Positions 1,092 through 30,886 of a DNA stretch of 43,530 nucleotides are shown here, piece by piece. Numbering within the stretch: position 1 is the first letter of the stretch; each line of letters starts with the position of its first letter. The translations under genes were made by a program, and so were the position numbers. The stretch is taken from the IMG/VR virus record IMGVR_UViG_3300015371_000929, positions 1 through 43,530 of that record; one strand, 5' to 3'. The notes beneath the pieces were generated by a model. It was not told the origin of the DNA. It saw nothing but the letters and a program-made list of their open reading frames with translations, and did not search any database. The DNA comes from a virus.

Positions 1092-2906
1092 GTGCCCCGA
1101 GGAAAGACCGCCCGAGCCCGGCTCCCCATCGCCGAGCTGACCCCCCAGGTTCTCGCCCTCACCGCCCGTGGGCTCACCGTGAGGAAGATCGGTGACGAGC
1201 TGGGGATCGGCGAGACCTCCGTTCGCAAGATCAAGAAGCTCGCGGCGGCCTCGGGCCAGGGGACCGTCATCATCCCCAACCCGGTCCTCGACCACGATCT
1301 CCTCGATGCCCGGTACCAGCTCATGCTGGGGTGCCGGGATCTCGGGGAGGGTCACTTCCACACTCCGACACCTGGGGGGTTCCGCGACTTCTTCGACGAG
1401 TTCTCGGGCCATGTCCTGCCCGATCACTGTTTCCAATGGGTGTGCGATGCGATGGGGGATGGTGGGTTCTCCGGCATCCGGCTGCTCATCAACTGCCCCC
1501 CCCGGCACGCCAAGTCCAAGGTGTTCACCGTGTGGATGCCGATCTTCCGGGTGGTCATCGACCGGGACGTCCAGTGTCTGCTCGTGTCCCAGACCGAGGA
1601 GCTCGCCAAGAAGTTCGCACGCGAGATCGCCTACCACCTCGAGTACAACCGGCCGCTCCTGCAGGCGTTCGGTCGGTTCAAGGGGCAGAACGCGGACGAG
1701 GCGTGGCGCCCCAACTCCGGGATGCTCCTCGTGGCGGGTCGCCGGCGCGACATCAAGATGGGCGACATGACGATCCAGGTCCGGGGATCGGGCCAGCAGA
1801 TCCTCGGCATGGAGGCCGACCTCATCATCGGCGACGACCCGGTGTCGCGGCGCAACTCGGCCACCGAGGGCGAGCGCATGAAGCTCTCGGAGTGGTGGCA
1901 CGGCGACGTGATGACCCGGCTCACCCCCGACGGCGACGCCTACGTCATCGGCCAGCGCCTCCACCACCAGGACCTCTACGGCGAGCTGGCCGCCAAGCGC
2001 AAGACCAGGGTGGCCGGTGCTCCCGAGCTGTGGCGCCACATCAACTACCCCGCCGTCCGCAACTGGACGACCCAGGAGGTGCTCTGGCCCGAGGTGTGGA
2101 GCTTCGACCGGCTCATGGAGAAGTACGAGGACATCACCTCGGTCCACGGCACCGCCCTGTGGGAGTCCATGTACCAGCAGAACCCCATCCCCCCCGAGGC
2201 CCGCACCGTCCGCCCGGAGTGGGTGTACGGATCGGACGTCCACATCGGGTGCCTCGACCGGCACCGCCGCCTGGGCCAGGCCGCGACCGCTCTCGAGGGC
2301 GAGCAGTTCGTCCGGGTGGCCTCCCTCGACCCCTCCCCGACCAGGGCCACCGGGCTCGTGGTGGGCGACCTGCTGTCCTCGCGCGACCGCTTCTACTTCG
2401 TGGTCATGGAGACCCTGCGGGACCGCCTGGACGTCCGGGGCATGATCCGCGAGCTGACCCGCATGGTGATCCAGTACGGCTTCTCCTACCTCATCGTGGA
2501 GATCAACGCCGCCCAGCGGTGGTTCCTGCAGGACCCCGAGTTCCGCCAGTGGCAGCTCCGGTACGGGGTCCGGGGGATCCCCCACACCACCCACCGGAAC
2601 AAGGCGGACCCCGACTACGGGGTCGGCTCCCTCGCCGGGGACTTCGAGTTCGGCAGGGTCCGGTTCCCCTACGGGAACACCGACGCCATCGAGCGCACCG
2701 ACCTCATGATCGACGAGCTCATCACCCACCCGTTCGGGGCCTACGACGACCAGTTCATGGCCCTGTGGTTCGTGAAGTACAACTTCGCCCGGCTCACTCC
2801 TCCGGGCACCTCGCACCAGATGCGTGACGGCGATCGCCGGGGAGGCCCCTACGGGTATCACGTCCCGGCCCGGCTCGAGAAGGGGTACGCATGGATGTCG
2901 TCCTGA
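1092..2906 (+). CDS. terL: Terminase large subunit with N-terminal HTH
   Basis: The 604-aa protein is the ATP-driven motor and nuclease that fills the capsid. Residues 15-50 form a helix-turn-helix-like segment (TVRKIGDELGIGETSVRKI), unusual for TerL and more like a small terminase or transposase DNA-binding domain. The ATPase has Walker A CPPRHAKS (135-142) and Walker B ADLIIGDD (242-249). YQQNP (361-365) marks the junction. The RNase H-like nuclease has the expected acids at D413 (SLDPS), E470 (IVEINAAQ) and D552/D553 (YDDQF). GTG 1092 is preceded by CGAGGAG. The gene overlaps the portal start by 16 bases. Confidence 0.95.
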   Translation: MPRGKTARARLPIAELTPQVLALTARGLTVRKIGDELGIGETSVRKIKKLAAASGQGTVIIPNPVLDHDLLDARYQLMLGCRDLGEGHFHTPTPGGFRDFFDEFSGHVLPDHCFQWVCDAMGDGGFSGIRLLINCPPRHAKSKVFTVWMPIFRVVIDRDVQCLLVSQTEELAKKFAREIAYHLEYNRPLLQAFGRFKGQNADEAWRPNSGMLLVAGRRRDIKMGDMTIQVRGSGQQILGMEADLIIGDDPVSRRNSATEGERMKLSEWWHGDVMTRLTPDGDAYVIGQRLHHQDLYGELAAKRKTRVAGAPELWRHINYPAVRNWTTQEVLWPEVWSFDRLMEKYEDITSVHGTALWESMYQQNPIPPEARTVRPEWVYGSDVHIGCLDRHRRLGQAATALEGEQFVRVASLDPSPTRATGLVVGDLLSSRDRFYFVVMETLRDRLDVRGMIRELTRMVIQYGFSYLIVEINAAQRWFLQDPEFRQWQLRYGVRGIPHTTHRNKADPDYGVGSLAGDFEFGRVRFPYGNTDAIERTDLMIDELITHPFGAYDDQFMALWFVKYNFARLTPPGTSHQMRDGDRRGGPYGYHVPARLEKGYAWMSS

Positions 2907-4717
2907 ACGCACCGCCCACTCCGTCCCAGGTCCAGCTCGCCGACATGGTGTGGCGCCGGGAGTTCGAGGAGATGGTGCTCCCCCTGCGGCACGACTTCGT
3001 GGAGTCCAACTCCGACTGGAAGTCCCGCATCCGCAAGGTCCGGGCCCTGTACCGCGGCGACTGGGAGGAGGCGTTCCCGGACGGGACGGTCCGCATCGAC
3101 CTGCCCAAGACCTCGAACCCCGTGCAGACCGGCCTGGACGACCTGTCCCGGCTGACTTCCGAGAACGAGGCCCGGCACCACTGTGAACCGGCCAACGCCT
3201 CCCAGGAGGCCATCCTCAACGCCGAGCTGCGCGAGCACATCTTGGACACGTACTGGTTCCACAACGAGGGCGAGGAGCTGGCCCCGCAGCTCGTGTTCGA
3301 CCTGGCCGGCACCGGCGGGTGCTTCATGTCCGTGACCGCGCGGTCGGAGTTCGACTACCCGTTGTTCACCCGGCTCGACCCGGACTGCTCCTACCCCGAC
3401 ATCGTGAACGGGATCCTCGTGACGTTCCTGTACGCCCAGCGGATGAAGGCCCGTCACGTCAAGGCGCTCTACGGGATCGACTACACCGCGGAGCGTCTCG
3501 GCGCCTCGGACACCTCCGACGTGGAGATCGTCGACTACTACGACACCTCCGTGCACATGCGCGGGGCCGTCCTCATGGGGTCGGACGGGGGCGTGCGCTC
3601 GGGATCGGCGCGGGTCATCAACCGGACCCAGCACGACCTGGGGTGCGTCCCGGTGGCCTGGGCCAAGCTCAAGTCCCTCGACGGGGCGTGGCGGGGGATC
3701 TACGACCAGGCGGGCGGGTCGATGCTGGCCCGGAACCGCATCCTGCAGCTCACCCTGGACTACGCCGACCAGCTCGTGTACTCCCCGCTGTTCGCCCATG
3801 ACGTCGAGAACGACCGCGACCCCCCGGCCCCCAAGACGATCTATCGCCTTCGGACCCCGGAGGGCAAGATCGGCCGGGTGGCCCCCGCGGGGAACAACCC
3901 CGAGCTGTTTCAGCTCATGGAGTACCTCGACCGGGAGGGCCGCACCGGGACCATGCAGCCAGCCGCCCGCGCCGGGGAGGTGTCGCAGTCCATCGCGTCC
4001 GCCGCCTTCGTCACCTCGACCCTCGGCCAGCTCACCTCGCTGATCCGGGTCCTGCAGCGGGAGGTCGGCTCGCTCCGGCAGCGGGCCAACCGCATCGCCA
4101 TGAAGATCGACACCGAGTTCCTCGACTTCAACAAGCCCCTCATGCTGAACGCCGGGAAGCGCGCCACCTACACACCCGGCGCGGCCATCGCCGAGCGGTA
4201 CGACCACCGGGTGCTGTACGGCGCCGGCGCCGGCCTGGACGCCCTGAACAAGAAGGTGGCGCTCCTGCAGGACCTCGGCGCGCGGCTCATCTCGAGGGAC
4301 ACGGCGCGGGACCAGCTCGACTACCTGGGGGACAAGGTGTCCGAGGAGCTCAAGGTGGACCGGGAGCTGGTGGGCGACGCGCTGACCCAGCGCCTCGCCA
4401 CCGAGAAGGACCTCTCGGTGCTGATGAACATGCTGCGGCTGATGATCTCCGGCCAGTCCTTCGCGGAAGCCTCAGGCGTCATGGCTCCCCTCGTCGACCA
4501 GCAGATGCAGCAGGCCATGCTTCCGCCCGGAGCACCCCAACCCGGAGGGGTGCCGCCACCGGGTGCCGAGGGGCTGCCCCCCGGCGTGCCCCCCGATCAG
4601 GCCCAGCAGGCGCTCATGGCCGGGGCGACGGGTGGGCCACCGCCGGGGGTCCAGCCCCAGGTGCAGCTCCCGCCACCGCCCATGGAACAGGTCATGGTCC
4701 GGCCGGTGTCGGGCTGA
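2891..4717 (+). CDS. Portal protein
   Basis: The 608-aa product follows the terminase and has the size and layout of the larger podovirus-type portals: a helical N-terminal third, a mixed central part and a long helical segment around 350-520. The portal ring is the DNA channel at the capsid vertex and the docking site for terminase. The last ~80 residues are very rich in Pro, Gly and Gln (PPGAPQPGG-like), probably disordered. ATG 2891 has GAGAAGGGG upstream and sits inside the terminase gene; its stop overlaps the next ATG (TGATG). Assignment rests on gene order, length and general sequence pattern. Confidence 0.85.
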   Translation: MDVVLNAPPTPSQVQLADMVWRREFEEMVLPLRHDFVESNSDWKSRIRKVRALYRGDWEEAFPDGTVRIDLPKTSNPVQTGLDDLSRLTSENEARHHCEPANASQEAILNAELREHILDTYWFHNEGEELAPQLVFDLAGTGGCFMSVTARSEFDYPLFTRLDPDCSYPDIVNGILVTFLYAQRMKARHVKALYGIDYTAERLGASDTSDVEIVDYYDTSVHMRGAVLMGSDGGVRSGSARVINRTQHDLGCVPVAWAKLKSLDGAWRGIYDQAGGSMLARNRILQLTLDYADQLVYSPLFAHDVENDRDPPAPKTIYRLRTPEGKIGRVAPAGNNPELFQLMEYLDREGRTGTMQPAARAGEVSQSIASAAFVTSTLGQLTSLIRVLQREVGSLRQRANRIAMKIDTEFLDFNKPLMLNAGKRATYTPGAAIAERYDHRVLYGAGAGLDALNKKVALLQDLGARLISRDTARDQLDYLGDKVSEELKVDRELVGDALTQRLATEKDLSVLMNMLRLMISGQSFAEASGVMAPLVDQQMQQAMLPPGAPQPGGVPPPGAEGLPPGVPPDQAQQALMAGATGGPPPGVQPQVQLPPPPMEQVMVRPVSG

Positions 4718-5078: not shown

Positions 5079-5273
5079 ATGGCGAAACGCAAGTGGATCA
5101 AGGGCGCGATCAAGCGTCCGGGGGCCTTCCGCGCGAAGGCCAGGCGGGCAGGGATGAGCACCTCGGCCTACGCCCGCAAGGTGTTGAAGAAGGGGTCGAA
5201 GGCCAGCGCCAGGACCAAGCGGCAGGCCAGGCTCGCCCAGACCCTCGGGAAGATGCGACGGAGGCGTAGATGA
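5079..5273 (+). CDS. Small basic protein, 'MAKRKWIKGAIK' type
   Basis: The 64-aa protein begins MAKRKWIKGAIKRPGAFRAK, has a central GMSTSAYARKVLKKGSK segment and ends KMRRRRR. Similar short basic proteins are common in phage structural regions, function unknown. ATG 5079 is preferred over the in-frame start at 4977 because it has AGAAGGGG at a good distance, matches the usual start of such proteins, and avoids overlap with the preceding small gene. The stop overlaps the next ATG (ATGA). Confidence 0.8.
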   Translation: MAKRKWIKGAIKRPGAFRAKARRAGMSTSAYARKVLKKGSKASARTKRQARLAQTLGKMRRRRR

Positions 5274-5821
5274 GTCAGCAACCGGGTTCCTCCTCGGATC
5301 CGTTCCAGCAGCCCCGCCCCGGAGCCTCCGGGGAGGGTGATCGCCGCTCGTTCCAGAACTTCGTCTCGGCCACTCCGTTGCCGGGGTACGTGTACTCCCC
5401 CGAGCTGGCCCTGTATCTCGACCCGAACATGCCGAAGGACCTGCAGCCGCATTACGTCACCCTCAAGAACCCCCAGACGGGGCGCACGGCGACGGTGCCG
5501 TACACCGGGGAGCGCCCCACCGAGTTCCTCGACATGATGCAGCAGCCCATCGCCACGAATCCGGGCCAGGAGGCCATCCCCGGCTACGCCCAGCCCTCGG
5601 GCGAGCAGAACCTCGACATGTTCATCCACGGGCCGACCCAGCGGCCCAACGAGCCGGTCACGGCGGGGGTTCCCATGGGAGGGGGGCCGCAGTTCGTCCG
5701 CATCCCCGGCGAGTCCGACCCGCAGTTCCGCTCGAGGATCGGACAGAGCCTCATGCAGTCCGCGGTCAAGACCGACCCGCTGATCCGGTCCTTCGCCCTG
5801 CGGCTCATGCAGGGGGGCTAG
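5270..5821 (+). CDS. Hypothetical structural-region protein (183 aa)
   Basis: Not recognised. The N-terminal 25 residues are Gln/Ser/Pro-rich, the centre is mixed with beta-strand character (VYSPELALYL, HYVTLKNPQ), and the C-terminal 40 residues look helical. It is coupled to the gene before (ATGA) and ends directly before the GTG of the giant gene. A partner, chaperone or capsid-internal role linked to the giant protein is possible. Confidence 0.75.
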   Translation: MSQQPGSSSDPFQQPRPGASGEGDRRSFQNFVSATPLPGYVYSPELALYLDPNMPKDLQPHYVTLKNPQTGRTATVPYTGERPTEFLDMMQQPIATNPGQEAIPGYAQPSGEQNLDMFIHGPTQRPNEPVTAGVPMGGGPQFVRIPGESDPQFRSRIGQSLMQSAVKTDPLIRSFALRLMQGG

Positions 5822-8800
5822 GTGGCGGTCCTCACCGACCCGAGGGTTCCCCTCCCCGAGGAGGAGGAGCCCCGGCCCCAGGTCCAGCCGACGCCGCAGC
5901 CGTCACCCCAGCCTCCCTACGCCCCACCGACGCGGCCTCCGGTCACGCCGACCCCCTCGCCCACGGTGGGCGTCGCTCCCGGCGAGGCTCCGCGCCGGGA
6001 TTCCCCGGAGACCTGGGACACCCCCGGCATCCTCAAGTCCCAGGTGCCCATGTCGGGCCTCGTCCCCACCAAGCGGATTCGCGTGCCGATCCCGTCCGAG
6101 CCCGAGCACCTGGACCAGCCCGAGCCGGAGCCCTGGACGGCCCAAGGTCCCTACGCGCGGCTGCGCCGGGTGGAGCAGGCCAGCTTCGGCAAGCTCCCCA
6201 CCACGTTCGTCATGGGGCTGTCGGAGGCCGACGTACCGGACTGGCTGCTGACCAGGGCCACCGGCGAGCTGTCCCAGGCGTGGGACGTGAACCCCTCGCT
6301 CCTCGGGCTGCACCCCGGTCCACCGGGGTCGGACACGTGGATCGCGCCGAACACGAATCAGATCGTGTCCGGTGTCCAGGCCCGGCACCTCCTCGCGGTG
6401 TACAAGGAGCAGTCCATCCGGTCGCTCCTCGCCGACATCACCACCCCGGATGGGCGCGTCGAGCTGCAGGCTGGTGCCATCGCGCACCGGCGCGGCGAGC
6501 CGGTGGTGAACAACCCCGGCATCCTGTCGGTGGCGACGGTGATCGACGCCCTGACGCGCTCCGGCCACATGAGCGAGCGGTCGTTGGAGCAGGTGCTCGG
6601 TACGGGGGTGTCGATCGCGGGGCTCCTCGACGACCCGGCCCTGACCGACGAGGAGCGGACGAAGCGCCTGGACGATTTCGCCCACAACCTCGCGCTGACG
6701 GAGGGCCAGACCGCCGGCCACTGGACGATGTGGGTGGGCGCCGCGGAGGACGCGGCCGCGAAGGGCGTCCGGTTCGACACGATGGCCGACCTCCTCGTCC
6801 AGTACGCCGGGCTTCCCCCACCGGGGTCAAGGGGCGAGGCGGTGGACCCGGAGGAGATCAAGCGCCGGTTCCACATCTCCTCGGTCCAGCAGAACCCCGT
6901 GCGGGAGTTCGAGGGGACCTACTACTTCTTCGACCCCATCTCGGGCCAGTGGCAGGTCGTGTCCCCCGAGGTCGTGGGCGAGCTGCGGGCAGCCGCGCCC
7001 CGCATCGTGAGCCGGTTCGCCCCGACCGAACAGGCGCTCGCAGTCGGCGCGGTCCAGGCGCTCGGCGCCGACGTGCAGCACATGGACACCTCACCGGGTT
7101 CGTGGGGTCTGCCGACGAACGTGGCGACCTCCTACGGCGGGGGTCATGTCTCCAAGCCCCCCAGCCGGGAGCAGTACGCCGCGATGGGGTTCCTCCCCGG
7201 CCCCGGTGGGTTCGACCTGTCACGCCCGAACGACTGGTGGCGGGAGTCGGCGAAGATCGCCGCGAAGGTCAAGACGGACCAGGCGGCGTGGGAGAACTCC
7301 TGGGTGGCGGCGGGCCTGGGGTCGCTCGGCATGTCGCTCGACTGGATGTACCGCCACGGGCAGGGGCTTCTGCTGCGGGACGCGGCCAGCGTGGGGTGGC
7401 TCCTGAGCCGCCCGTTCATGGGCCAGGACGAGGCCAACGCCGGGTTCGACGAGATGGTGTCCAAGGCCCAGGCGGTCGAGCAGGGCCGGACGTCCCTCGG
7501 GAAGCTCGCGGTGTCCGAGGGGTCGCTGTTCTCGTTCCTGCCTCAGTGGTCGGCCCCGATCCTCGACCTCGGGACCGCGTGGTACTTCGACCCGTTCGTC
7601 GTGGGGATGGGCGCGTTCAAGGCGTATCGGATGGCCCGGTACGGGGTGAAGTCGGTGGACGAGGCGCTCCGCGCCGGCCGCAGCGTGTTCACGGCGCCGA
7701 GGCTGGAACGGGCCCTGGCCGAGGACAGCTCGACGTACCTGGGGCGTCTGTCGGCGCGGTCGCCGACCGCACGCAACGTCTTGGAGTCGATGCTCGAGCG
7801 GAACAAGGACCGCGCGGAGCGGCTGTGGGCGCGCTCGGCTGAGCAGGTCATCGACACCCCACACGCCAAGCTCGGGGGCAAGCCCCTGTGGCAATGGCTC
7901 TACGACCAGGCGGTCACGGTGGCGAAGGAGGGGAAGTCCGGCACCCTGTTCCGCCGGGCGAACGAGCACCTGCGGACGGTCATGGCCCGCGACGCCATCG
8001 ACCCCAACCTGGCCCGGACCATCGAGCAGGTCGTGAACCTCGGTTACACCTCGGGGCGCTCCGCGGAGGAGGTCGCCCGGATGGTCCGCCAGACCCTCAT
8101 GGCCGGGCTGGGGGTGAAGCCGCTCGACGACCAGTTCTTCCGGGTGATCCGCCGCCAGCTCCTCGACGAGGCGACGACCCAGCGGATGCGGATGTCGGTC
8201 CCGATCCCCGACCGCACCCTGGTCGGTCGCACCGACTCGTTCCGCCTGTTCGACCTGCAACAGAAGCTCGCCCACCTCGATGAGGTCGAGCATGTGTTCA
8301 CCGGCGGGAGCCGGATCACCGATGCCGGCGAGCGCCAGGCGGGGTCGTTCTTGGACGTGCTCGGCGGGGGGGAGGTCCCCACCGGCCACACCTACGGGGA
8401 GGCGCAGACCGGTAGGGGCATCGCCGTGGGGGACACGGGTGGCCGGATCGGGTTCGTCCAGGGCGAGCTGCCGTACTACTCGGCGGTCCACCGCGCCGCG
8501 GAGCGGATCAGGCAGTCGGCGTTCGCGGACACCGAGGCGGGGTCCTACATCGACCGGCTCCTCAATCACGTCCCCCCTGCGCTGCTGCCGTTCGAGCGGA
8601 CCTTCGTGAAGAACATCGACATGCGTGCACGGCGTGCCGGTGTGTGGACGCGGGAGGAGCAGGAGGGGTTCGTCGCCAGGGCCGCCCAGATCTCGGCGGT
8701 CACGAACCCCGACCGCGAGCGCTCGATGATCCGGTTCATCGAGGACTTCACCAAGCGGACCTGGGAGCAGATCAGGCTCCGGGCCGGGCTCCCGGCGGAC

Positions 8801-11800
8801 ATCGCCGATGGGCTGTGGAAGGGGATGCTCATGGTCTCCGACGCGACGAACACCAACGTCGCGTTCGGCATCCTCGAGCGGATCCGCGATCCCAAGACCG
8901 GCGAGCTGGTGCTGGAACGGGTCAAGACCCCCATCGGCGAGACCCAGCTCATCAACCAGTGGTTCGCCCTGGACCCGGTGGCGATGCGCCGGGCGATCCG
9001 CAACGCCTCGGGTGGGTGGACCCAGGTGAAGATCGGGCTGCACCGGTTGCTGAACAACGTGCCTCTCGGGGAGCACGTCACCGAGGATCATCTGCTCGCG
9101 TCCGCCGCGCGGTCGGGACTCAAGACCCGTCTGGCCGAGGCCATGGGCAAGGCCCGCCAGCCCGCCGCGACCCAGGTGGAGCGGGTGGTCGCGCCGGAGG
9201 TGGCGAGAGCCGAACGGGCTGCGTTCGCCGATCAGGTGTTCAAGGAGATGACGGCTCCGGGCGCTCCCTATGCCTCCCGGCCGCTTCCCGGTGGTGCGCT
9301 CGATTCCGTCGCAAAGACCGACCTTCGGGCGCGTCTTGACCGCTACGTGGACACGGGCAACGTCGAGCTGCTGCCGCAGAAGGAGCTGTCGACTCCCCAG
9401 CGCAAGGACGCCGCCGCGCTCAAGGCCCGCCACGAGGGGACTGCCGAGGTGGCACCGGATGAGGAGGCCGGGTCGCTGTTCGACCGCGACGAGCTCGAGA
9501 AGGCCATGTGGGTCATGGACGACCTCGCCAAGGCGGCGGTGTCCTCGGGAGCGCACGAAACCGTCGACGACTTCTACAACTCGGTCCGGCCCCGGTTCTC
9601 CGACCTCGTGGACGAGCAGAACGGGATCGCCTACTACAAGCGCATCTACGAGCCGGTGGGCCGGTACTCGCCCCAGGACATCGCACGGCGGGCCGAGGAG
9701 CACCTGGCCGCGCATCGCGGCGCCGACCTGTGGCATGTGGTGTCCAAGGAGGGGCTCGACCGCTACGCCACGCCGTTCCTCACCGGGGTCCACACGTTGC
9801 TGGACGGCTCCCAGGTCAACCGGCGCGACCTGTTCATGCAGATCCTCTCGGTGCTGTCCTCGGCGAACCCCCCGTCCCGCCAGCTCGACATGGCGATCGA
9901 GGCGTTCATCGGGGTCACGCAGGGCGAGCCGGCATCCCAGATTCTCGACCGCTGGGCGATCCAGGTGGCGAAGCACCGGGTCGCGGCAGAGGCCGGTGTC
10001 GCCACGCATGTCCGTGATGAGGTCGAGGCGGCCTGGGATGCGGTGGACGATGTGGTCGGCAGCAAGCTCATCGCGCGGGCCCGGCGCGATCTCGACGAGA
10101 CCGATTGGGAGGAGCTGTTCCGCGACGTTCCGACGACCTCCCCCGAGGCCGAGGGGCGGTGGGGGACGCGGACGGAGCTGCATTGGCAGCGCAACGACGA
10201 CGGGTCGTACACGGTCCACGGGTGGCACGGCACGGACCGGGGTGGCCTGCCGAACGACGACGTGCCGCGCGGGGTTCACGTCGGGACGTACAAGGCCGCC
10301 GTGGACCGGCTCTCGATGCGGGGGATCATCCAGCATCCGGCGCAGCCCGGTGCCCCGTCCACCATCCCGGCTATCGCGGAACCCACCTTGCAGGAGTCGA
10401 TGGACGAGGTGGGGCTGTGGCTCGAGAACAGCGAGTACTCGGTCGATCAGGTGATCGACATGGTGAAGGCCGGGGACCCGGAGATTCCCTCGGACGTCAC
10501 CAAGATGGTCGCCGACGCGCTCGACAACCCGAACCTCGATACGGAGGAGGCGGTCGACTGGCTGCACGCGCTCGCCGACAGCGATCACGGGCTGGCATAC
10601 GAGCCGCCCGACACCTTCGCTGGTGAGGCGGTTTCCGAGATGCTGCAGCCCGGCGAGCAGCTCCCCCCCGGTCCCGCCGAGCTGGCGCTCGATTGGGCGC
10701 ACAACATGGCGAAGGCGGACGGGTTCCATCCGGGGACGGCGGAGTACCAGACGGCGGTTCAGCAGCACTTCGAGCAGCAGCTCCAAACGGAGCTTGAGCT
10801 AGCGGGCGAGTCGCTTCCCGGTGCGCCTCCCACGTCCGTGCCGGGGACCAAGCCGGATGGGCCGTTCGTCCCGACGAGGATGCCCGGCGGGGCCATGCTC
10901 CCCCTCCATGAGCAGCCCGGCCGGGTGCGGGTTCTCCCGGTGTCGTTCCACCTCGAGAACCCCCTGGGCAGCCCGTGGGACGCGCTGTCCGATGCGGAGG
11001 CGAACACGCGAGCGATGGCGGTCGCGGAGGAAGGCATCCATGACGGCATCTTCTACCGCAACGAGGTGGAGGGAGAGGTTCTCGGGCGTCAGTCGCTCTC
11101 GGCCATCGTGTTCCGCAACGGCAAGGCGCTGCACCTCCGGCTGAACACCGGGAACCCGCTGCCGTCCGTCCGCACGATGCTCGAGGACATCGTGTCGGGC
11201 TCCCGCAAGATCGGGGAGCTGGACTACAAGACCCAGCAGATGTTCATTCAGCCCGAGCTGGTGGATCGCGGGTTGAAGCGCGACAGATTTGTCCGCGATC
11301 CCAACGCCCCGACCCGGACGTTCCATGAGGGGCAGCGTGCCCTGGTCGATTGGGGGCCGGGGATGCCGGGGCACCACAACCAGGCCGAGCTGATGCGCGT
11401 GCCGATCTCGGAGCTGCTCGAGGCCCACCCCAGCCACTTCGATGCGGTCCACGGTCCCGGCGCGTACCCGATCCTGCACGCCGATCCCTCGGAGATCGCC
11501 GCGGCGGGCGATGTTCGTCCGCCGGTGGTGCAGTTGCAGGGGTCGAAGCTGGGGGGGACCACGCACGACGACTCCCAGCTCATCGTCGATGCCTTGCAGC
11601 GGGGCGACGAGGACGTCCTCGTGTGGCGGCACGACCACAACCCGCACAAGACCTACGAGGAGGACGTCGACGACGCCGTGGGGGCCATCCGGAACCGGCT
11701 GGTCTACACGGGGATGGACAAGTGGCCGGACCTGTACACGGGCGAGCACCTTCCGCTGTTCGCCCAGAAGCGCATGAAGGTCCACGCCATGTACCGGCTC

Positions 11801-14800
11801 CTGCATGACGGCGACGACCAGGCCATGATGATCGACCGCTGGATCGCCAGGGGGTTCGGGTTCTCGGGCAAGGGCGAGATCCCCGCCGGCGACTTCCGCC
11901 AGATCGAGGATGCCGTCCGCCTCGTCGCCAAGCAGAACGGGTGGAGTCCGGGTCAGGCCCAGAGCGTGCTGTGGGACATGTTCAAGAACGAGCACGCGGA
12001 CATGCTGCAGAGCACCGCGGCCGACCTGCGCGTTGCGGCTGATCGCTTCGAGGTCGCCGCCGACCCCCGCATCGACGAGGCCACGATGGCGCCCATCGAC
12101 CTCGGGCCGATGTACGAGGCCACGGGGCGCGACCCCATGTGGCAGTCGCTCCGTCCCGAGCATGTCCTGACCACCTGGGGCATCCCGACGGTGGGGCACT
12201 TCCCCGGCGTGACGATGCACTCGCTGATCGAGGACGGGCGCCGGATGGGGGACATCGCCATCTGGGCGGACGAGTCGGGGCGGGCCCGTGGCTATCTCAC
12301 CCACTACAAGCAGGTCCCCGAGGGCAGCCCCATCTCGGAGATCGGGGTCGAGCCGGAGTTCCGCGCCCAGGGGATTCCTCAGCAGATGGCCGAGCAGCTC
12401 GTGGACCACCTGGGGATTCGCATGAGCGACCTCGTGGAGGCCGGGCTGCACGGCGGGGGGTTCACCGAGGCCGGTGCCAGGATGCTCAAGCGCGAGGCGC
12501 TGGCGGACGGCAACGCCGCGTGGGAGCGGGTGCGGAACCACCCCGCCCGCAAGCAGTTGTTCGGCAAGAGGATGCCGAACCGCAACGACCCGGCAGCCCT
12601 GCGGAAGCTGGCGAACTCCCTGTCGAGGCAGGCCAAGAAGGCTCGTGACGCCCGAGACATGAAGGAGCTGATCGAGTCCGGCGACGTGTTCGAGAACGGG
12701 CTGACGCAGCGCATGGCGAGGCTCCGCGCGCTGGCTCCCCGCGAGAAGGGCCAGGTCGGGGAGCTGACGTGGCTGACCCAGGACAAGCTCGACAAGTTCC
12801 GCAAGCGCAACGAGATGGGCAAGACCCTCGCCATGACCGAGCTGGGCGACCAGCGGGCACGCATGACGATCTACCAGGGTGGCGGGGACTGGCTGACCGT
12901 GACGCATGAGATGGGCCACTACATGCGCTCGATGCTCACCGATGCGGACCTCGACCTCCTCGAGCACTACCTCGGCGTGCAGCGCCAGACCCGCCGGGTG
13001 TTCTCCGCGCCGGGGCAGGTCTTGTTCCACTCGAAGCCGGAAGGCGTGGACATGGGGGCTAGGGTCCGCGACACCTCGCGCTGGCCGATGGAGGCCGAGG
13101 AGAAGTTCGCCGAGGGCTTGGAGAACTTCGCCAACTACGCGATCGCTCCCCCGGAGCTGACCGGGGTGTTCCGGCAGATCATGGGGTGGCTCAAGCGTGG
13201 GTACCAGCGATTGCAGGGCAACCCGGAGCTTCGCGCCGAGATGGGCCTCACGCCGGAGCTCGAGGCGTTCTGGAAGCGCATGTTCGACGGGTCGCGCTAC
13301 GCGAAGCACCCCCTGGTCGCCGTCCCCCGGCTGACCCCGGAGGAGATGGTCCTGCACGGGGGCGAGTTCGCGCGGGAGCTGTTCACCCGGACCCTCGGCT
13401 CAGAGGGCTACCTCGCCATCTGGAAGCCCGCGATGGTCATTCGCCTGGGCTACATCTTCCGCGTCCCGTTCTTCGATGAAACGATCCGCAACTTGGCCGA
13501 CGTCGGGCTGCTGAACCGCATGAAGGCCGGCACCCGCTCCGCGCAGGTGCTCACCCACGCCTCCAACGCCGGGCTCGTCCCGAAGGGGTGGGTGGAGACT
13601 GTCCACGAGCTGCCGATGCAGGACGGCGGGACGTTCGCCCTGCGCCAGCCGCTTCCGGGGATGCTCCCCCACGAGCTGTACGCCGACTCCCGCACCAAGC
13701 ACTTCGGCGAGATCTACCAGTCGTTCGGGGAGGAGCAGAAGCGGGTCCAGAAGGGCCTCGCCGACGGGTACGGCCTGGTCGATCCCCCCGGTCCCAAGCC
13801 TCCCTCGTTCGGGCTGCGGAGCCGCAGGGAGGACAAGGCGTGGAGCCACTACTTCCGGTCGTGGACCGACGCGGTGAACGGCCACCTCGCCATGGGGGCG
13901 TTCGGCCACGAGGCGCTGTTCCACATCTCGGAGGGCATGACCCGCGAGCAGTCCATCGACGAGCTGCTGCGTCTGCTGGGATCGGGGGACCGGGCGTTCA
14001 CCTCGGCCGCCAAGCGCATCGGGATCGACGAGCTGTCGCCGGAGGAGCTGCGGACCTGGATGGGCACGACGGTGGACATGGCGCGGCGCTACACGCTGGG
14101 GGACCGCAAGCTCGCGTTCGCCGCCATGCGCCGGGAGGCCGATCCGGGGATGCTCGCCACCGTCATCAACGAGGCTGCGGCCCACGGTGAGGAGCTGACG
14201 CTGCCGTCCGTCCACGGGATGCAGGCGGCGGTCCAGTCGGGCCGCATGAACCCGCTGAAAGACGCGGTGGACTTCATGGCGAAGTGGATCCTGCAGGAGC
14301 CCACGAACCGCCTGAACCGCCAGCCGTTCTTCAAGGCGTGGTACTCGATGATGATGGAGATGCAGATGCGCCTCGCCAAGGCGGGGGGGGCGATGCCTCT
14401 CGACACCCGCGAGGCCGAGATGGTCGTCAAGCAGATGCAGCGCCAGGCCCGAGAGTTCGCCATCAACCGGACCCAGCGCATCCTGTTCGACTTCCGCGAC
14501 CAGTCCCGGCTCGCGGAGATGATGTCGTTCGTCGCCCCGTTCTTCCAGCCGTTCGCCGAGGCGATCAGCGTGTACTCCCAGCTCATCCGCAAGAACCCGA
14601 TGCTGATCCCCTACGCGCGGGTCCTGTGGAAGTACGCCAACGACCAGGGCATCGTCCGCAAGGATCCGGACACGGGCCAGAACGTCGTGCCCCTGTCCAA
14701 CTTCTTCTTCATGGCGCCGATCCTGAGCGCGGTGTACGGCCACGAGAACATGCCGGGGTTCTCGCTGTCCGCGCCCCTGTCCTCGTTCAACCTGTTCTTC

Positions 14801-16939
14801 AACAACGCGATCCCGTTCGCCACGCCGTTCAACATCGCCGGGACCGTGAACATCCCCCTGCCGGGGTTCGCGCCGCCCGTCCAGTGGCTCATCCAGGCGT
14901 ACCTCAACTGGCGTGACCCGAACCACGACTCCAAGCTGACGGCCTGGGCGTTCCAGTACGGCCCCATCGGGATTCACTCGCTATTCCCGACCTACGTGAA
15001 CAACATCATCAACGCGCTGTCGGGCGGGAAGTGGAACCCGGACCAGTCGGCCGCCTACGTCGACGACTTCGAGGCGCTCGCCATCGCGCAGGGCACGGCG
15101 CCGCTCAAGGAGGACGGGCAGATCGACTACGAGCGGCTCCGCGAGATGGCGAACAAGCAGGCGGGCATCTTCTACGGGTTCAAGAGCTTCATCTCCTGGG
15201 CGTTCCCCGCCGGCCCGACCACCGACTTCCCCACCGTGGAGCTGAGCCGGGAGTTCCGCGACTTGCAGGCCAACCCGAAGTACGGGCCGCTCGGGGCGCG
15301 CGACGAGTTCATCCGTCGCCACCCGGAGCCGGGCATGGGCATCTTCACCATCGCCAAGACGATGTGGGACAAGACCGACCCCGGCCTCCCGACCAAGTTC
15401 TCGGTCCCGTCGATCCCGGCGAATGAGATCGCCGACAAGGTGCTGTCGACGCCTGGGTTCAAGGAGTTCGCGGCTCGGTTCCCCGCGCTGGCGTGGGCCG
15501 TCCTGCCGCCGGCGGCGTTCGCGTCGGGGGAGTACGACCCCGACATCTTCCGCAAGCAGGTCGCGCTGATCCAGCGGTCGTACAAGGACCCCACGGCCTA
15601 CGCCAAGGAGGGCCGGGCCGCGGAGGGGTGGGTCTCGTACTTCCACCTCCGCGAGGGCTGGGAGGCCCGCCAGCAGGCGTTCATCGACCAGGGCATCCCG
15701 GAGACAGCACCCGAGTGGATCGCGGCCAAGAACGACTTTGACGCCGGTGTGACCCAGCTCCAACGGACCAACTTCGAGTGGGACACGGAGTTTGGCGCGG
15801 CCATCGACTTGAAGATCGACCCGAACGTCCTGGCGTACCTGCGGAAGGCCCGGAGCGACGAGGTGCTCCGCGACTTCCCGGTGGGCAAGGCACTCGATGA
15901 GTACTTCACCGGGCGCGATGCCATCGAGAAGGAGATGAAGCGCCTCGGGATCGGCTCGATCGACAGCCAGTCGGCCATCGACACGGGGCTGGCCCAGCAG
16001 TACACGGACCTCGTGGGCGACCCGGAGAAGAACACCGGGCTCATGGCCGATCCCGACTTCGAGCGGCTGTACCAGATGTTCCTCGGCGACGACCTCATGG
16101 GGCTCAAGTCGAACGCGAGCGTGAAGATCAACGGCATTCCCCCGGAGTTGAAGGACCGGGTGTACGGGTGGGGCCGGGACTACGCGGACATCCTCGACCG
16201 CATCCAGATCGCGGGTTCCGACACCGACCGGGCGCTGCTGTTCCAGCAGGAGCGCGACATGGTGAACCGGGCCTATGCCGACTACCCGGAGGAGTGGAAC
16301 CCGGCGATCCTGCAGTACGACGCGCTCGGCTACGACATGAAGCGGCGCCGCGCCATGAGCGTGATGACCAAGCCGTACGAGTTCCTCGACCAGCTCGAGC
16401 GCAGCTACATCCTGGGGGATGCCACGTCGGCCTCGGCCGAGCAGATATGGGCGCAGGTCGGGGACGCCCGCATCCAGATCGGCCAGGCCCAGGACGCCAA
16501 CCCGGACTTCGACTCGGCAGCGGCCTACGCCCAGCTCGATGAGTGGGTCCAGGGCAAGGCCGAGTCCGACCCGACCTTCGCCGCGCAGCTCGCCAACGCG
16601 AACACCTGGGGGTACTCGTTCTTCAAGATCAGCGGGTTCACCAACGGAGACTCCCCCTCGGCGGATAGCTGGCGCGCGGTGCAGTCCGCCATGGTGCAGA
16701 TCCAGGATTGGGCGGATCAGAACGACATGCACGGGGACATCGGGTTCGACGAGACCAAGAAGTTCGCCTGGACGGACGCGAAGAAGCAGCTCTACAGCTA
16801 CATCCAGCAGCTCGCGGGGTCGGACACGACGTTCGCGGGGCAGATCGAGTACCTCGAGCGGAACACCCGGTCCGACCTGATCGACGTGTTCATGCCAGAG
16901 GTCTACTTCCCACTCGGGGGGGTGAGGTCCGTTGGCTGA
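5822..16939 (+). CDS. Giant 3705-aa polyvalent protein: ART-like, GNAT-like, HExxH protease
   Basis: This single gene spans 11.1 kb. Regions in order: Pro-rich disordered N terminus (1-110); a long mixed/helical region (120-1400); an ADP-ribosyltransferase-like first half with HGT (1469-1471) and GVHVGT (1484-1489); a ~210-aa Pro/Glu-rich insertion; the second ART-like half with VLPVSFHLENPL (1704-1715) and DGIFYRNEVEG (1741-1751); a GNAT-like stretch (about 2144-2205, VEPEFRAQGI at 2176); a zinc metallopeptidase with HEMGH (2362-2366) and a downstream AEEKFAE (2425-2431) that could supply the third ligand; then ~1250 mostly helical residues, with an NRTQRILFDF...APFFQP segment near 2882. This matches phage polyvalent proteins that are packaged and injected to act on host or invading-DNA defences. 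That function is inference. GTG 5822 follows the preceding stop at once. Placement between portal and capsid is unusual. Confidence 0.85.
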   Translation: MAVLTDPRVPLPEEEEPRPQVQPTPQPSPQPPYAPPTRPPVTPTPSPTVGVAPGEAPRRDSPETWDTPGILKSQVPMSGLVPTKRIRVPIPSEPEHLDQPEPEPWTAQGPYARLRRVEQASFGKLPTTFVMGLSEADVPDWLLTRATGELSQAWDVNPSLLGLHPGPPGSDTWIAPNTNQIVSGVQARHLLAVYKEQSIRSLLADITTPDGRVELQAGAIAHRRGEPVVNNPGILSVATVIDALTRSGHMSERSLEQVLGTGVSIAGLLDDPALTDEERTKRLDDFAHNLALTEGQTAGHWTMWVGAAEDAAAKGVRFDTMADLLVQYAGLPPPGSRGEAVDPEEIKRRFHISSVQQNPVREFEGTYYFFDPISGQWQVVSPEVVGELRAAAPRIVSRFAPTEQALAVGAVQALGADVQHMDTSPGSWGLPTNVATSYGGGHVSKPPSREQYAAMGFLPGPGGFDLSRPNDWWRESAKIAAKVKTDQAAWENSWVAAGLGSLGMSLDWMYRHGQGLLLRDAASVGWLLSRPFMGQDEANAGFDEMVSKAQAVEQGRTSLGKLAVSEGSLFSFLPQWSAPILDLGTAWYFDPFVVGMGAFKAYRMARYGVKSVDEALRAGRSVFTAPRLERALAEDSSTYLGRLSARSPTARNVLESMLERNKDRAERLWARSAEQVIDTPHAKLGGKPLWQWLYDQAVTVAKEGKSGTLFRRANEHLRTVMARDAIDPNLARTIEQVVNLGYTSGRSAEEVARMVRQTLMAGLGVKPLDDQFFRVIRRQLLDEATTQRMRMSVPIPDRTLVGRTDSFRLFDLQQKLAHLDEVEHVFTGGSRITDAGERQAGSFLDVLGGGEVPTGHTYGEAQTGRGIAVGDTGGRIGFVQGELPYYSAVHRAAERIRQSAFADTEAGSYIDRLLNHVPPALLPFERTFVKNIDMRARRAGVWTREEQEGFVARAAQISAVTNPDRERSMIRFIEDFTKRTWEQIRLRAGLPADIADGLWKGMLMVSDATNTNVAFGILERIRDPKTGELVLERVKTPIGETQLINQWFALDPVAMRRAIRNASGGWTQVKIGLHRLLNNVPLGEHVTEDHLLASAARSGLKTRLAEAMGKARQPAATQVERVVAPEVARAERAAFADQVFKEMTAPGAPYASRPLPGGALDSVAKTDLRARLDRYVDTGNVELLPQKELSTPQRKDAAALKARHEGTAEVAPDEEAGSLFDRDELEKAMWVMDDLAKAAVSSGAHETVDDFYNSVRPRFSDLVDEQNGIAYYKRIYEPVGRYSPQDIARRAEEHLAAHRGADLWHVVSKEGLDRYATPFLTGVHTLLDGSQVNRRDLFMQILSVLSSANPPSRQLDMAIEAFIGVTQGEPASQILDRWAIQVAKHRVAAEAGVATHVRDEVEAAWDAVDDVVGSKLIARARRDLDETDWEELFRDVPTTSPEAEGRWGTRTELHWQRNDDGSYTVHGWHGTDRGGLPNDDVPRGVHVGTYKAAVDRLSMRGIIQHPAQPGAPSTIPAIAEPTLQESMDEVGLWLENSEYSVDQVIDMVKAGDPEIPSDVTKMVADALDNPNLDTEEAVDWLHALADSDHGLAYEPPDTFAGEAVSEMLQPGEQLPPGPAELALDWAHNMAKADGFHPGTAEYQTAVQQHFEQQLQTELELAGESLPGAPPTSVPGTKPDGPFVPTRMPGGAMLPLHEQPGRVRVLPVSFHLENPLGSPWDALSDAEANTRAMAVAEEGIHDGIFYRNEVEGEVLGRQSLSAIVFRNGKALHLRLNTGNPLPSVRTMLEDIVSGSRKIGELDYKTQQMFIQPELVDRGLKRDRFVRDPNAPTRTFHEGQRALVDWGPGMPGHHNQAELMRVPISELLEAHPSHFDAVHGPGAYPILHADPSEIAAAGDVRPPVVQLQGSKLGGTTHDDSQLIVDALQRGDEDVLVWRHDHNPHKTYEEDVDDAVGAIRNRLVYTGMDKWPDLYTGEHLPLFAQKRMKVHAMYRLLHDGDDQAMMIDRWIARGFGFSGKGEIPAGDFRQIEDAVRLVAKQNGWSPGQAQSVLWDMFKNEHADMLQSTAADLRVAADRFEVAADPRIDEATMAPIDLGPMYEATGRDPMWQSLRPEHVLTTWGIPTVGHFPGVTMHSLIEDGRRMGDIAIWADESGRARGYLTHYKQVPEGSPISEIGVEPEFRAQGIPQQMAEQLVDHLGIRMSDLVEAGLHGGGFTEAGARMLKREALADGNAAWERVRNHPARKQLFGKRMPNRNDPAALRKLANSLSRQAKKARDARDMKELIESGDVFENGLTQRMARLRALAPREKGQVGELTWLTQDKLDKFRKRNEMGKTLAMTELGDQRARMTIYQGGGDWLTVTHEMGHYMRSMLTDADLDLLEHYLGVQRQTRRVFSAPGQVLFHSKPEGVDMGARVRDTSRWPMEAEEKFAEGLENFANYAIAPPELTGVFRQIMGWLKRGYQRLQGNPELRAEMGLTPELEAFWKRMFDGSRYAKHPLVAVPRLTPEEMVLHGGEFARELFTRTLGSEGYLAIWKPAMVIRLGYIFRVPFFDETIRNLADVGLLNRMKAGTRSAQVLTHASNAGLVPKGWVETVHELPMQDGGTFALRQPLPGMLPHELYADSRTKHFGEIYQSFGEEQKRVQKGLADGYGLVDPPGPKPPSFGLRSRREDKAWSHYFRSWTDAVNGHLAMGAFGHEALFHISEGMTREQSIDELLRLLGSGDRAFTSAAKRIGIDELSPEELRTWMGTTVDMARRYTLGDRKLAFAAMRREADPGMLATVINEAAAHGEELTLPSVHGMQAAVQSGRMNPLKDAVDFMAKWILQEPTNRLNRQPFFKAWYSMMMEMQMRLAKAGGAMPLDTREAEMVVKQMQRQAREFAINRTQRILFDFRDQSRLAEMMSFVAPFFQPFAEAISVYSQLIRKNPMLIPYARVLWKYANDQGIVRKDPDTGQNVVPLSNFFFMAPILSAVYGHENMPGFSLSAPLSSFNLFFNNAIPFATPFNIAGTVNIPLPGFAPPVQWLIQAYLNWRDPNHDSKLTAWAFQYGPIGIHSLFPTYVNNIINALSGGKWNPDQSAAYVDDFEALAIAQGTAPLKEDGQIDYERLREMANKQAGIFYGFKSFISWAFPAGPTTDFPTVELSREFRDLQANPKYGPLGARDEFIRRHPEPGMGIFTIAKTMWDKTDPGLPTKFSVPSIPANEIADKVLSTPGFKEFAARFPALAWAVLPPAAFASGEYDPDIFRKQVALIQRSYKDPTAYAKEGRAAEGWVSYFHLREGWEARQQAFIDQGIPETAPEWIAAKNDFDAGVTQLQRTNFEWDTEFGAAIDLKIDPNVLAYLRKARSDEVLRDFPVGKALDEYFTGRDAIEKEMKRLGIGSIDSQSAIDTGLAQQYTDLVGDPEKNTGLMADPDFERLYQMFLGDDLMGLKSNASVKINGIPPELKDRVYGWGRDYADILDRIQIAGSDTDRALLFQQERDMVNRAYADYPEEWNPAILQYDALGYDMKRRRAMSVMTKPYEFLDQLERSYILGDATSASAEQIWAQVGDARIQIGQAQDANPDFDSAAAYAQLDEWVQGKAESDPTFAAQLANANTWGYSFFKISGFTNGDSPSADSWRAVQSAMVQIQDWADQNDMHGDIGFDETKKFAWTDAKKQLYSYIQQLAGSDTTFAGQIEYLERNTRSDLIDVFMPEVYFPLGGVRSVG

Positions 16940-17954
16940 CGCACAGGGCAACCAGTTCCAGTTCGGCGATCCCACGGGAGCGTCCACGTCGTACTCCGCA
17001 CCCGGAGGGGTCGCTCCGGGGACGACGTACACGCCCGGTGCCGTCGACAACAAGCTCTACGTCGAGGTGTCCGCTGCCGGGGTCGCGGCGTTCGTGTACC
17101 TGACGGGCCAGGAGCTTCACGACGCCATCGCCGCGGGTCGCCACGTCTACGAGCCGACGTCGAGCGAGGTGCTCACGATGCTCAAGGACGGGCGGCTGAA
17201 CCCGGAGCAGCTTCCCGACGAGGTTCGCACCGAGCTGGGCCGGTTGCAGCACGCCGACCCCAGCATCGGCCCGGTGTTCCAGACCCCCGCGCTGGCGGGG
17301 GATTCCGGCGCCGGCGCGGACGGCGGGTTCCACTTCGACCCGAACGCCATCGGCGATCCCATCACCAAGGACGCGACCGACTGGTACTACAAGCTGTACG
17401 GGATCTCCCCGCCCGAGGGGTACATCGACCAGCTCAAGTCGCAGTACACCGACATCTACTCGATCAAGGCCGCGATCCTGGCCCAGGCCCGCAAGGACAA
17501 GGCACCGGGCCTCGCCACCCTCACCAAGTCCCAGCTCTCCCCGCAGGAGCAGCGCCTCTCATCGCTCACGTCCGCAGCGGAGACCTACTACTTCGAGCTG
17601 TACGGGCGCCCGTCGCCACCGGGCGAGATCCTCAAGATGGCGCAGTCGGGCATGAGCCTGTTCGGCATCCAGCAGTCGCTCCTCAAGGGAGCGAAGGCGG
17701 CCGGGGCACCGGGGTACGCCGACGTGAGGTTCCAGCAGGAGGTGTCCTCGGGCCAGCAGCTCTACTTCTCCCTGTGGGGCCGGGACGCCCCGCCGCAGTA
17801 CATCGAGAAGCGGATCACCGACGACGGCATGAACCTGTGGGAGCTCGAGAAGTTCGAGCGGTCCAAGCCCGCGTTCATGGACACGAAGGTGGCGAAGGAC
17901 GAGATATTCGCGGCCGCGGGCCAACTGACGAACTTCCTGGGGATGGGGTACTGA
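16932..17954 (+). CDS. Triplicate-repeat virion protein candidate
   Basis: The 340-aa product has three degenerate ~45-aa units: about 148-195 (WYYKLYGISPPEGYI), 215-260 (YYFELYGRPSPPGEI) and 274-315 (LYFSLWGRDAPPQYI), each followed by a helical part with a 'G.sl..i' turn. The pattern recalls DUF4214-type repeats ('lY..lLGR.pd..Gl..w'), but no firm family match is claimed. The TTG start overlaps the giant gene's end by eight bases, with GGTGAGG upstream, so its expression is tied to the giant protein. An internal virion or ejection-associated role is plausible. Confidence 0.8.
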   Translation: MADAQGNQFQFGDPTGASTSYSAPGGVAPGTTYTPGAVDNKLYVEVSAAGVAAFVYLTGQELHDAIAAGRHVYEPTSSEVLTMLKDGRLNPEQLPDEVRTELGRLQHADPSIGPVFQTPALAGDSGAGADGGFHFDPNAIGDPITKDATDWYYKLYGISPPEGYIDQLKSQYTDIYSIKAAILAQARKDKAPGLATLTKSQLSPQEQRLSSLTSAAETYYFELYGRPSPPGEILKMAQSGMSLFGIQQSLLKGAKAAGAPGYADVRFQQEVSSGQQLYFSLWGRDAPPQYIEKRITDDGMNLWELEKFERSKPAFMDTKVAKDEIFAAAGQLTNFLGMGY

Positions 17955-17955
17955 G

Positions 17956-18804
17956 ATGACGACCGAGAGCCAGCTCACCCAGGCGTTCATCCTGTCGGGC
18001 ATCCCCATCGCCCCGTTCCGCGAGCTGATCCACCAGGCCGTCATCAACTCGTGGTCGCACGACGAGCTGATGTTCCACGTCGTCATGTCCCCGGCGTTCG
18101 AGTCCGCGTTCCCCGGCATCAAGCGTGACGACGGGTCGCTCAAGATGGACCCGGCCACGTACCGGGCCACGGTGGACACCTACACGCACACGGCGTACCT
18201 CCTCGGGTACACCCCGTCCGCCGAGATGATCGGGGGCTGGATCGGGAACGACGTGTCCCCCCAGGAGGTCGCCGACCGTTACTCGGCAGCGAACCGGATC
18301 AAGGAGTCCCCGGAGGCGTTCGCGGCGCTGCAGAAGGAGTGGTCCGCTGCGGGGCTTGGGAAGATCAGCGAGGCCCAGGTGGCGAACGCGCTGCTCGGGC
18401 AGGCTCCCAAGGAGTTCTACGACATCTGGGAGCGGGTGAACCTCCGCACGGCTGCGGCCAACGCCGGCACCTACCTCACTCACGCGGAGGCGGCTCGCAT
18501 CCAGGCCGTCAGCCCGGAGACCCTCACCGAGTCGGGGACCCAGGCGACGATGGCCGACCTCGCCAACCAGCTCCGCACCACCATGCCGCTCTCCCGCCTG
18601 TATGCCCAGCACGGTCTGACCCGCTCGGACCTCATCACCCTCGAGTTCGGGGGACCCGGCCAGGCCGACATCAGAATCCGCGCTGAGAAGGCCCTGGCGA
18701 CCGCCAAGGCTCAGAGCGAGCCGAGGGCTACCCCATACGCGGGAGCGCTCACAGGGGCGCCCAGGACGGTCGTGGCGGGCTCTGGGGGGCCGCAGACAGC
18801 GTGA
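17956..18804 (+). CDS. Repeat-containing helical structural protein
   Basis: The 282-aa, mainly helical protein starts one base after the preceding stop. Segments such as FILSGIPIAPFRELIHQAV and AYLLGYTPSAEMIGGWI resemble the repeat units of the upstream protein, so the pair may be divergent paralogues. The C-terminal ~60 residues are low complexity. With the giant gene and its 3' neighbour it forms a three-gene block between portal and capsid. No catalytic motif is visible. Confidence 0.75.
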   Translation: MTTESQLTQAFILSGIPIAPFRELIHQAVINSWSHDELMFHVVMSPAFESAFPGIKRDDGSLKMDPATYRATVDTYTHTAYLLGYTPSAEMIGGWIGNDVSPQEVADRYSAANRIKESPEAFAALQKEWSAAGLGKISEAQVANALLGQAPKEFYDIWERVNLRTAAANAGTYLTHAEAARIQAVSPETLTESGTQATMADLANQLRTTMPLSRLYAQHGLTRSDLITLEFGGPGQADIRIRAEKALATAKAQSEPRATPYAGALTGAPRTVVAGSGGPQTA

Positions 18805-30289: not shown

Positions 30290-30886
30290 CTAGCTCACGA
30301 ACGGACCAAGCTGGCCCTTCATGTGCAGCGAGTTCACGTCCTCCCCCTCGGGGAGATGCACCACCTCCACGAACGCTGCCACCGTGGAGATGGCCCGGAG
30401 CACCCGTGCTCCCCCGTCCTGGCCCGGACGGTACGCCTCGCCACTGACACGGTGCTTCACCGCGTCCGCATCGAACACGATCCGTACCTTCCGGTCCACG
30501 AACAGCCAGCGCCACGCCTCACGGAATGCGCCAGCTCCCGGTACCCCGACTGCGGCGAGGCCGAGCTGCTTGAGGGTCAGGCAGTCGATCTCGCCCTCGG
30601 TGAGATACACCCATGGCTCGTCGACGTCAACCACGTTGTACAGCCCGGCCTTCACTCCGCGCGATCCCATGTACTTCGGGACGGCATTCGGGTGGAGCTT
30701 GCGCCACCGGGCCGAGGTCTGGCGTCCCCATGCGTCGTAGTACGGGAACGTGATGGCCTGCTCGTGGGGGTCGTAGCCGACCCCGTACTCCATGACGGTC
30801 GCCGGGGAGATGCCCCGGCTCCCCAGGTACACCTCCGCTGCATCCTCCGGGTGCATCCCCAGGATGATCTCGTCCTCCACGTTCAT
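30290..30886 (-). CDS. Toprim primase catalytic protein
   Basis: The 198-aa product matches the core of DnaG/T7 gp4-type primases. The Toprim acids are seen at EGEID (98-102) and DADA (139-142), with VGVPGAGAF between and LPEGEDVNSL (178-187) after. It lacks the zinc finger, which is in the gene just upstream; the two overlap by four bases (ATGA), so they are probably made in equal amounts. It would lay RNA primers for replication. A domain-divided primase is unusual; normally zinc finger, Toprim core and often helicase share one chain. Confidence 0.85.
   Translation of the reverse strand: MNVEDEIILGMHPEDAAEVYLGSRGISPATVMEYGVGYDPHEQAITFPYYDAWGRQTSARWRKLHPNAVPKYMGSRGVKAGLYNVVDVDEPWVYLTEGEIDCLTLKQLGLAAVGVPGAGAFREAWRWLFVDRKVRIVFDADAVKHRVSGEAYRPGQDGGARVLRAISTVAAFVEVVHLPEGEDVNSLHMKGQLGPFVS

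Follow-up and report, generated by a model that had tools for sequence, protein, structure and literature searches.

A giant cysteine-free protein of a podovirus-like phage as a putative ejection protein with an inserted polyvalent payload

The giant gene and its surroundings

We analyzed a phage genome of 43,530 bp (IMG/VR record IMGVR_UViG_3300015371_000929; hereafter, the window), a quarter of which (25.5%) is taken up by a single gene. As the first-pass annotation of this DNA had proposed, the gene is one uninterrupted frame of 3705 amino acids (aa), running from a GTG codon at position 5822 to a stop at 16939 on the plus strand. The GTG is preceded by a G-rich, Shine-Dalgarno-like stretch and abuts the stop codon of a 183-aa gene (5270-5821, +), and the 3' end overlaps the next gene, which starts at 16932. 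In each 300-codon block of the giant gene, the G+C content at third codon positions is 0.89-0.97, showing that the gene is coding throughout rather than a chance frame; taken together with the abutting start and the overlapping end, this composition indicates that the gene is genuine. Copies of a 123-bp direct repeat are located at the ends of the record (1-123 and 43408-43530). The repeat suggests either a complete genome or true terminal redundancy, and the genome is probably complete.

The giant gene sits between the portal and capsid genes. Upstream of it, on the same strand, are the genes for the terminase large subunit (1179-2906; phrog_38, 1.1e-67) and for a 608-aa portal protein (2891-4717), which has tblastn matches to the portals of Beephvirinae (24-32%). 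Downstream are the genes for a 340-aa protein (16932-17954, +) and a 282-aa protein (phrog_8424; 17956-18804, +), the latter kept beside the giant gene in relatives, and the gene for the major capsid protein (phrog_267; 21201-22052, +). The order terminase, portal, small genes, giant gene, further virion genes, scaffold and capsid is the same as in Beephvirinae, and in both cases the capsid gene is followed by replication genes, including those for helicase, primase and exonuclease, that form a leftward block. Podovirus morphology has been observed by electron microscopy for the Beephvirinae phage Abafar (PMC11536984).

Several minor features of the genome were also recorded. The primase- and DnaB-like matches are spread over two separate short genes, of 198 and 190 aa (30290-32111, -), and the Beephvirinae primase is likewise split into two short genes. 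A 499-aa protein (37743-39242, -) matches a family of DNA polymerase processivity factors (phrog_947, 1e-40) and has a weaker match to a RusA-like resolvase family; of the window genes scanned, none was recognised as encoding a DNA polymerase. No tRNA genes were found in the window, whereas in related Beephvirinae arrays of ~19-22 tRNA genes separate the giant-gene block from the scaffold gene.

Among cultured phages, Streptomyces podophages are the nearest relatives, and this relationship, along with the G+C content of 68%, makes the actinobacterial host assumed in the first-pass annotation plausible. A search of host genome contigs for prophage relatives by terminase found none, with one remote match in a contig of a Brocadiia MAG. 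At the DNA level, the window had no match among 50,697 phage records, and tblastn with aa 1-2995 of the giant protein likewise gave no match.

A carrier shared with relatives and an additional block

The corresponding slot in Beephvirinae is occupied by a hypothetical protein of 1635-1650 aa (Dennebes gp9, Manuel gp10, Immanuel3 gp9; phrog_10618), which accounts for ~11% of the genome. A literature search, in which few subscription journals were covered, found no paper on its function. The Beephvirinae and window proteins are colinear: residues 543-624, 912-1070 and 2677-3207 of the window protein match Beephvirinae residues ~163-256, ~466-640 and ~852-1362, respectively. The third match reaches pairwise E-values down to 1e-10 (3e-6 in tblastn against all phages), and the first two are weak when taken alone. 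Two motifs, WYFDP (aa ~576-613) and ETQLxN...D (aa ~1040), are common to the window protein, the Beephvirinae proteins and an IMG/VR relative, L015, that is considered below. The phrog_10618 profile, which represents the Beephvirinae giant proteins, matches the window protein at 1.8e-12 (aa 2810-2959), within the most conserved domain of the chain (aa ~2765-3010; 14114-14851, +). Although the two proteins share their slot, their colinear motifs and the lack of cysteine, the Beephvirinae protein is much shorter, is only 21-23% identical in the aligned stretches and has no HExxH motif and no counterpart of the additional block described below.

Through an alignment of terminases, ~35 further relatives were found in IMG/VR (terminase identity 30-51%). 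A giant frame follows the portal gene in every one of them that has enough downstream DNA, and the complete frames are 2226, 2125, 2501, 2054, 2536 and 2014 aa long. A profile of the C-terminal domain of the relatives matches the window protein (hmmsearch, 4e-8 in a small set; hhalign, 96%, 3e-9); alignments of the complete giant proteins by hhalign were degenerate and were discarded, so that these values refer to the C-terminal block alone. The C-terminal domain is preceded by ~890 residues in Beephvirinae, by 1122-1593 residues in the other relatives and by ~2765 residues in the window protein.

Comparison with L015 (terminase 48% identical) placed an additional block in the middle of the window protein. 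Residues 840-988 and 1001-1128 of L015 match window residues 902-1059 and 2484-2585, and the space between the two matches is ~1,424 aa in the window versus 12 aa in L015. The additional block (hereafter, the cassette) comprises aa ~1066-2485, that is, ~1,420 aa (9017-13276, +). In the flanking alignments of the window, L015 and Beephvirinae proteins, the ETQLxN...D motif lies before the cassette and the pattern WK...(L/I)...GY..R...DE after it; outside L015 and Beephvirinae, homology of the flanks across the junction is weak. Without the cassette, the window chain would have ~1341 residues before the C-terminal domain and a total of ~2,281 aa versus 2014-2536 aa in the family, so that a carrier of ~2,280 aa is of normal size for its family.

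The N-terminal part of this carrier, delimited by BLASTP and MAFFT colinearity, consists of aa 1-1065 (5822-9016, +), and 28% of its first 110 residues are proline. The C-terminal part consists of aa 2486-3705 (13277-16936, +), with the motif WKP..VI..GYIFRVP..DETIR (13409-13501, +) located directly after the cassette. It corresponds to the run of ~1250 helical residues described in the first-pass annotation (aa ~2485-3705), which turns out to be conserved in relatives. No solved structural relative of the carrier was found, and its structure model failed (pLDDT 38.9). LPD38 was considered as an identity for the C-terminal domain and matched nowhere, although the controls were also unmatched.

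The giant gene is more variable than its neighbours. The phage represented by L014 and the window phage share 68% identity in the capsid protein (21201-22052 compared with L092) and 50% in the terminase, yet BLAST of their giant proteins gave no match. The giant gene thus diverges or recombines much faster than the neighbouring genes, or has been replaced.

Cassette domains and cargo in relatives

All enzyme-like parts of the giant protein lie within the cassette. At the C-terminal edge, aa 2324-2489 (12791-13288, +) are predicted to form a zincin-like metallopeptidase of the polyvalent MPTase type. The HExxH motif reported earlier is present at aa 2362-2366 (12905-12919), and a glutamate in the following helix, E2427 (13100-13102), provides the third ligand; H2362, E2363, H2366 and E2427 are invariant in a 19-row alignment. 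Homologues were identified in 27 giant frames from IMG/VR (L094-L120) and in the Pseudomonas phages AF and HU1 (0.03 and 2 in full-database tblastn; 3e-6 and 1e-4 in pairwise comparison). In AF, the protein concerned, gp16, carries the Pfam domains LPD22/LPD23 and is encoded directly after the internal virion protein genes. The core helices of the window domain were modelled at pLDDT 84-95, and the best BFVD match of the model is to part of a giant viral protein (2e-5). A PDB profile search with the alignment returned nothing significant, with penicillin acylase (0.025) and apolipoprotein E ranking above ACE/aminopeptidase N. The homologues and the invariant ligands make assignment of the domain to the phage polyvalent metallopeptidase group well supported. 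In one of the homologous frames, L112, a clear ART-like domain (YHGT...GYDGI) directly precedes the zincin, and a further HGT segment lies upstream.

Upstream of the zincin, a RimI-like GNAT segment (aa ~2110-2230; 12149-12511, +) includes a putative acyl-CoA loop, VEPEFRAQGI. PF00583 matches it at 12251-12412 with an E-value of 0.0012 in a search within the window genome, below the cut-off; the mycothiol synthase (MshD) model scores 0.015, RimI 0.058 and RimI in the PDB 0.66. The matches from several libraries thus fall on the same residues, and none of them is over its cut-off; the model of this part shows strands followed by a helix at low confidence. A GNAT-like segment had been noticed at aa ~2120-2200, and the concordance of weak matches gives a RimI-like GNAT moderate support. 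A third segment, aa 1982-2058 (11765-11995, +), resembles DUF7178 and phrog_3842 (Pfam 1.9e-4, below the curated cut-off; PHROG 9.8e-4).

The ART-like segment (aa ~1455-1785; 10184-11176, +) is unproven. The motifs noticed in the first reading are all there, namely, HGT at aa 1469, GVHVGT at 1484, NPLG (followed by D) at 1713 and DGIFYRNEVEG at 1741, and together with a final strand, SAIVF, they occur in the right order, with an interruption of ~190 aa. The segment has no tyrosine at the position where polyvalent ARTs have it, PF18760 (ART-PolyVal) has no match in the window protein, and a profile built from the ARTs of L095, L112, L115 and L015 scores the cassette no better than shuffled sequence. 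The structure model of the cassette had no significant match in the PDB.

Recognizable cargo is sporadic in the family. The giant protein of L015 contains an ART-PolyVal domain over the curated cut-off (36.3 versus 31.2 bits) at another site of the carrier, after the DE motif. L014 has a GNAT domain over the PF00583 cut-off in a genome search, and G009 (L036/L089), which is probably complete as judged from a 50-bp end overlap, has a weak ART-like match. No convincing Pfam domain was found in L024, L027, L038, L039, L041, L043 or Beephvirinae. The family thus shares a carrier in which effector domains occur sporadically and at differing places, most relatives having no recognizable cargo. A remoter terminase relative, L090 (G014), encodes a 2467-aa frame with an ART-PolyVal match (1.3e-5), and this frame has no detectable similarity to the giant-protein family of the window.

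These domains in the relatives bear on the possibility that the ART label, the GNAT label or both are wrong and that, apart from the zincin, the cassette is mostly non-enzymatic. We regard such misassignment as unlikely, although it deserves to be taken seriously: neither label has a profile at its cut-off, the ART profile stays within the range of shuffled sequences and the GNAT part of the model is of low confidence, but several GNAT/RimI matches coincide on residues that include the RAQGI loop, and the same gene in relatives carries ART-PolyVal and GNAT domains that are over their cut-offs.

The distribution of cargo also bears on the origin of the cassette, our preferred reading being that it was inserted in the window lineage. 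That the block is instead an ancestral feature, missing from L015, Beephvirinae and others through loss, appears improbable. The recognizable cassette domains are absent in Beephvirinae, in L015 and in the group of L024, L039 and L043, and cargo elsewhere in the family occupies different sites, favouring independent gains; nonetheless, L015 is the only close relative that resolves the junction, and all comparisons within the family are remote, which leaves room for ancestral presence and loss.

Cysteine absence and a proposed route into the cell

The giant protein contains no cysteine in 3705 aa, whereas ~32 would be expected from the other predicted genes of the window (73 cysteines in 8468 aa; Poisson P ~1e-14). 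The cassette alone has none in 1421 aa (~12 expected), and the neighbouring 183-, 340- and 282-aa proteins also lack it. Across 23 giant frames of the family (41,776 aa, counted from stop to stop), which as members of one family are not independent, there are 9 cysteines, all within the first 45 residues and mostly upstream of the likely start; the terminase and portal proteins of such phages have 99 in 13,233 aa. Cysteine is likewise absent from the giant proteins of AF and HU1, and absent or nearly so from at least 24 of the 27 metallopeptidase-bearing giant frames (1100-2150 aa); by direct count, 25 of these frames have no cysteine, the exceptions being L096 (3 cysteines) and L110 (2).

The ejected proteins of well-studied podophages, used as a control, follow the same pattern. 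There is no cysteine in 4294 aa of N4 gp50-52 or in 1309 aa of P22 gp7, gp16 and gp20, and T7 gp14-16 have a single cysteine in 2261 aa, located in gp14. In contrast, the other virion and packaging proteins of N4, P22 and T7 contain 29 in 5108, 27 in 3495 and 20 in 3317 aa, respectively (0.57-0.77%), although some non-ejected virion proteins are also free of cysteine, such as the capsid protein of the window (0 of 283). The lack of cysteine in the N4 and roseophage vRNAPs has been considered possibly relevant to entry (PMC2784036, citing Kazmierczak et al. 2002). Because the cargo obeys the same rule as the carrier, it may well travel by the same route, and the podophage gene order together with the total absence of cysteine supports ejection of the giant protein.

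We consider it likely, on these grounds, that the giant protein is a podovirus-like internal virion or DNA-ejection protein with an inserted polyvalent payload. The earlier designation of the entire chain as a polyvalent protein holds for the ~1,420-aa insert; the remaining ~2,280 aa would be a virion-protein carrier. By analogy with N4, the family-specific carrier would be packaged at the portal, inside the head, and would leave it at infection either ahead of the DNA or together with it, taking along in its middle the metallopeptidase, the GNAT acetyltransferase, probably an ART-fold domain and the DUF7178-like segment. The N4 vRNAP, of 3,500 aa, is ejected through a tail of 30-45 A and has been modelled to unfold (PMC12633501). 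The lack of cysteine in the chain, payload included, would then reflect a need to pass the tail in a largely unfolded state and to regain the fold inside the cell. There, the zincin at the boundary between payload and carrier would most likely cut the payload free, its position at the C-terminal edge of the cassette, adjoining the carrier, being a plausible place for a cutter. Release of other domains by self-cleavage has been proposed by Iyer et al. for the zincins of polyvalent proteins, as has modification of host proteins by the ARTs and GNATs (PMC5512222), which is what the freed GNAT and ART-like domains might do.

A static role in structure or assembly, as part of an inner core, a tail hub or the machinery of head maturation, with the zincin as a prohead maturation protease and no entry into the cell, is decidedly improbable. 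It would accord with the position of the gene among head genes and with the proposal that metallopeptidases of the polyvalent type process proteins before packaging, as for P1 DdrB (PMC5512222). However, most relatives have no recognizable peptidase, so that assembly of the carrier does not need one; GNAT and ART domains have no obvious part in assembly; and the absence of cysteine extends to the payload, matching the ejected rather than the other virion proteins of T7, N4 and P22. A large virion-associated adhesin or wall-penetration protein with enzyme domains acting outside the cell is hardly credible, since, even though wall-degrading domains can occur in the internal proteins of podophages (T7 gp16; AF gp15, annotated as an endolysin), Pfam and PHROGs revealed neither a lysozyme, transglycosylase or amidase domain nor a binding domain, and GNAT and ART need acetyl-CoA and NAD+, both cytosolic.

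Delivery by ejection, the preferred reading, would combine two kinds of protein that are each already known. Phage-type polyvalent proteins (Iyer et al. 2017, PMC5512222) share with the window protein the zincin group and the encoding with virion genes, and the window payload may, like them, combine unrelated activities. AF gp16 resembles the window protein in lacking cysteine and differs from it in carrying LPD22/LPD23 and in having no detectable homology to the carrier; the window payload, unlike AF gp16, is embedded in a carrier that in most relatives has no recognizable cargo. The N4 vRNAP (gp50), which has been listed among MPTase-bearing polyvalent proteins (PMC5512222), is of similar size, cysteine-free and from a short-tailed phage, but takes up ~15% of a 70-kb genome. 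T7 gp15/gp16 and P22 gp7/16/20 are also cysteine-free internal virion proteins of short-tailed phages; unlike the window protein, they are much smaller, have no such effector payload and show no sequence relation that we could find. Two specific identities were rejected: an N4-like RNA polymerase (no match in Pfam or PHROGs at E-values up to 1) and a T7 gp16-like lytic transglycosylase (no match in Pfam or PHROGs). Three aspects appear to be new: carrier and payload are separate in a podophage family, the payload is of this size, and the cysteine-free rule extends to the family and its cargo.

Although injection has been predicted for polyvalent proteins, there is little direct evidence for it, and most descriptions of their architectures include no distinct delivery part; in the present family, comparison of relatives with and without cargo separates the carrier from the payload. 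Some Beephvirinae infect ordinary laboratory strains of Streptomyces, making packaging and ejection testable, and the cysteine-free signature could be used as a rule when searching for phage effectors that are injected. More generally, the evidence leaves about evenly poised the broader proposal that the ejection protein of these actinophage-type podoviruses is a delivery vehicle with cargo slots, in which effectors (ART, GNAT, peptidase) come and go at several sites of a fast-diverging carrier and the cargo is kept free of cysteine for unfolded threading. If this proposal is true, the absence of cysteine would be a general sequence signature of phage proteins that enter the cell.
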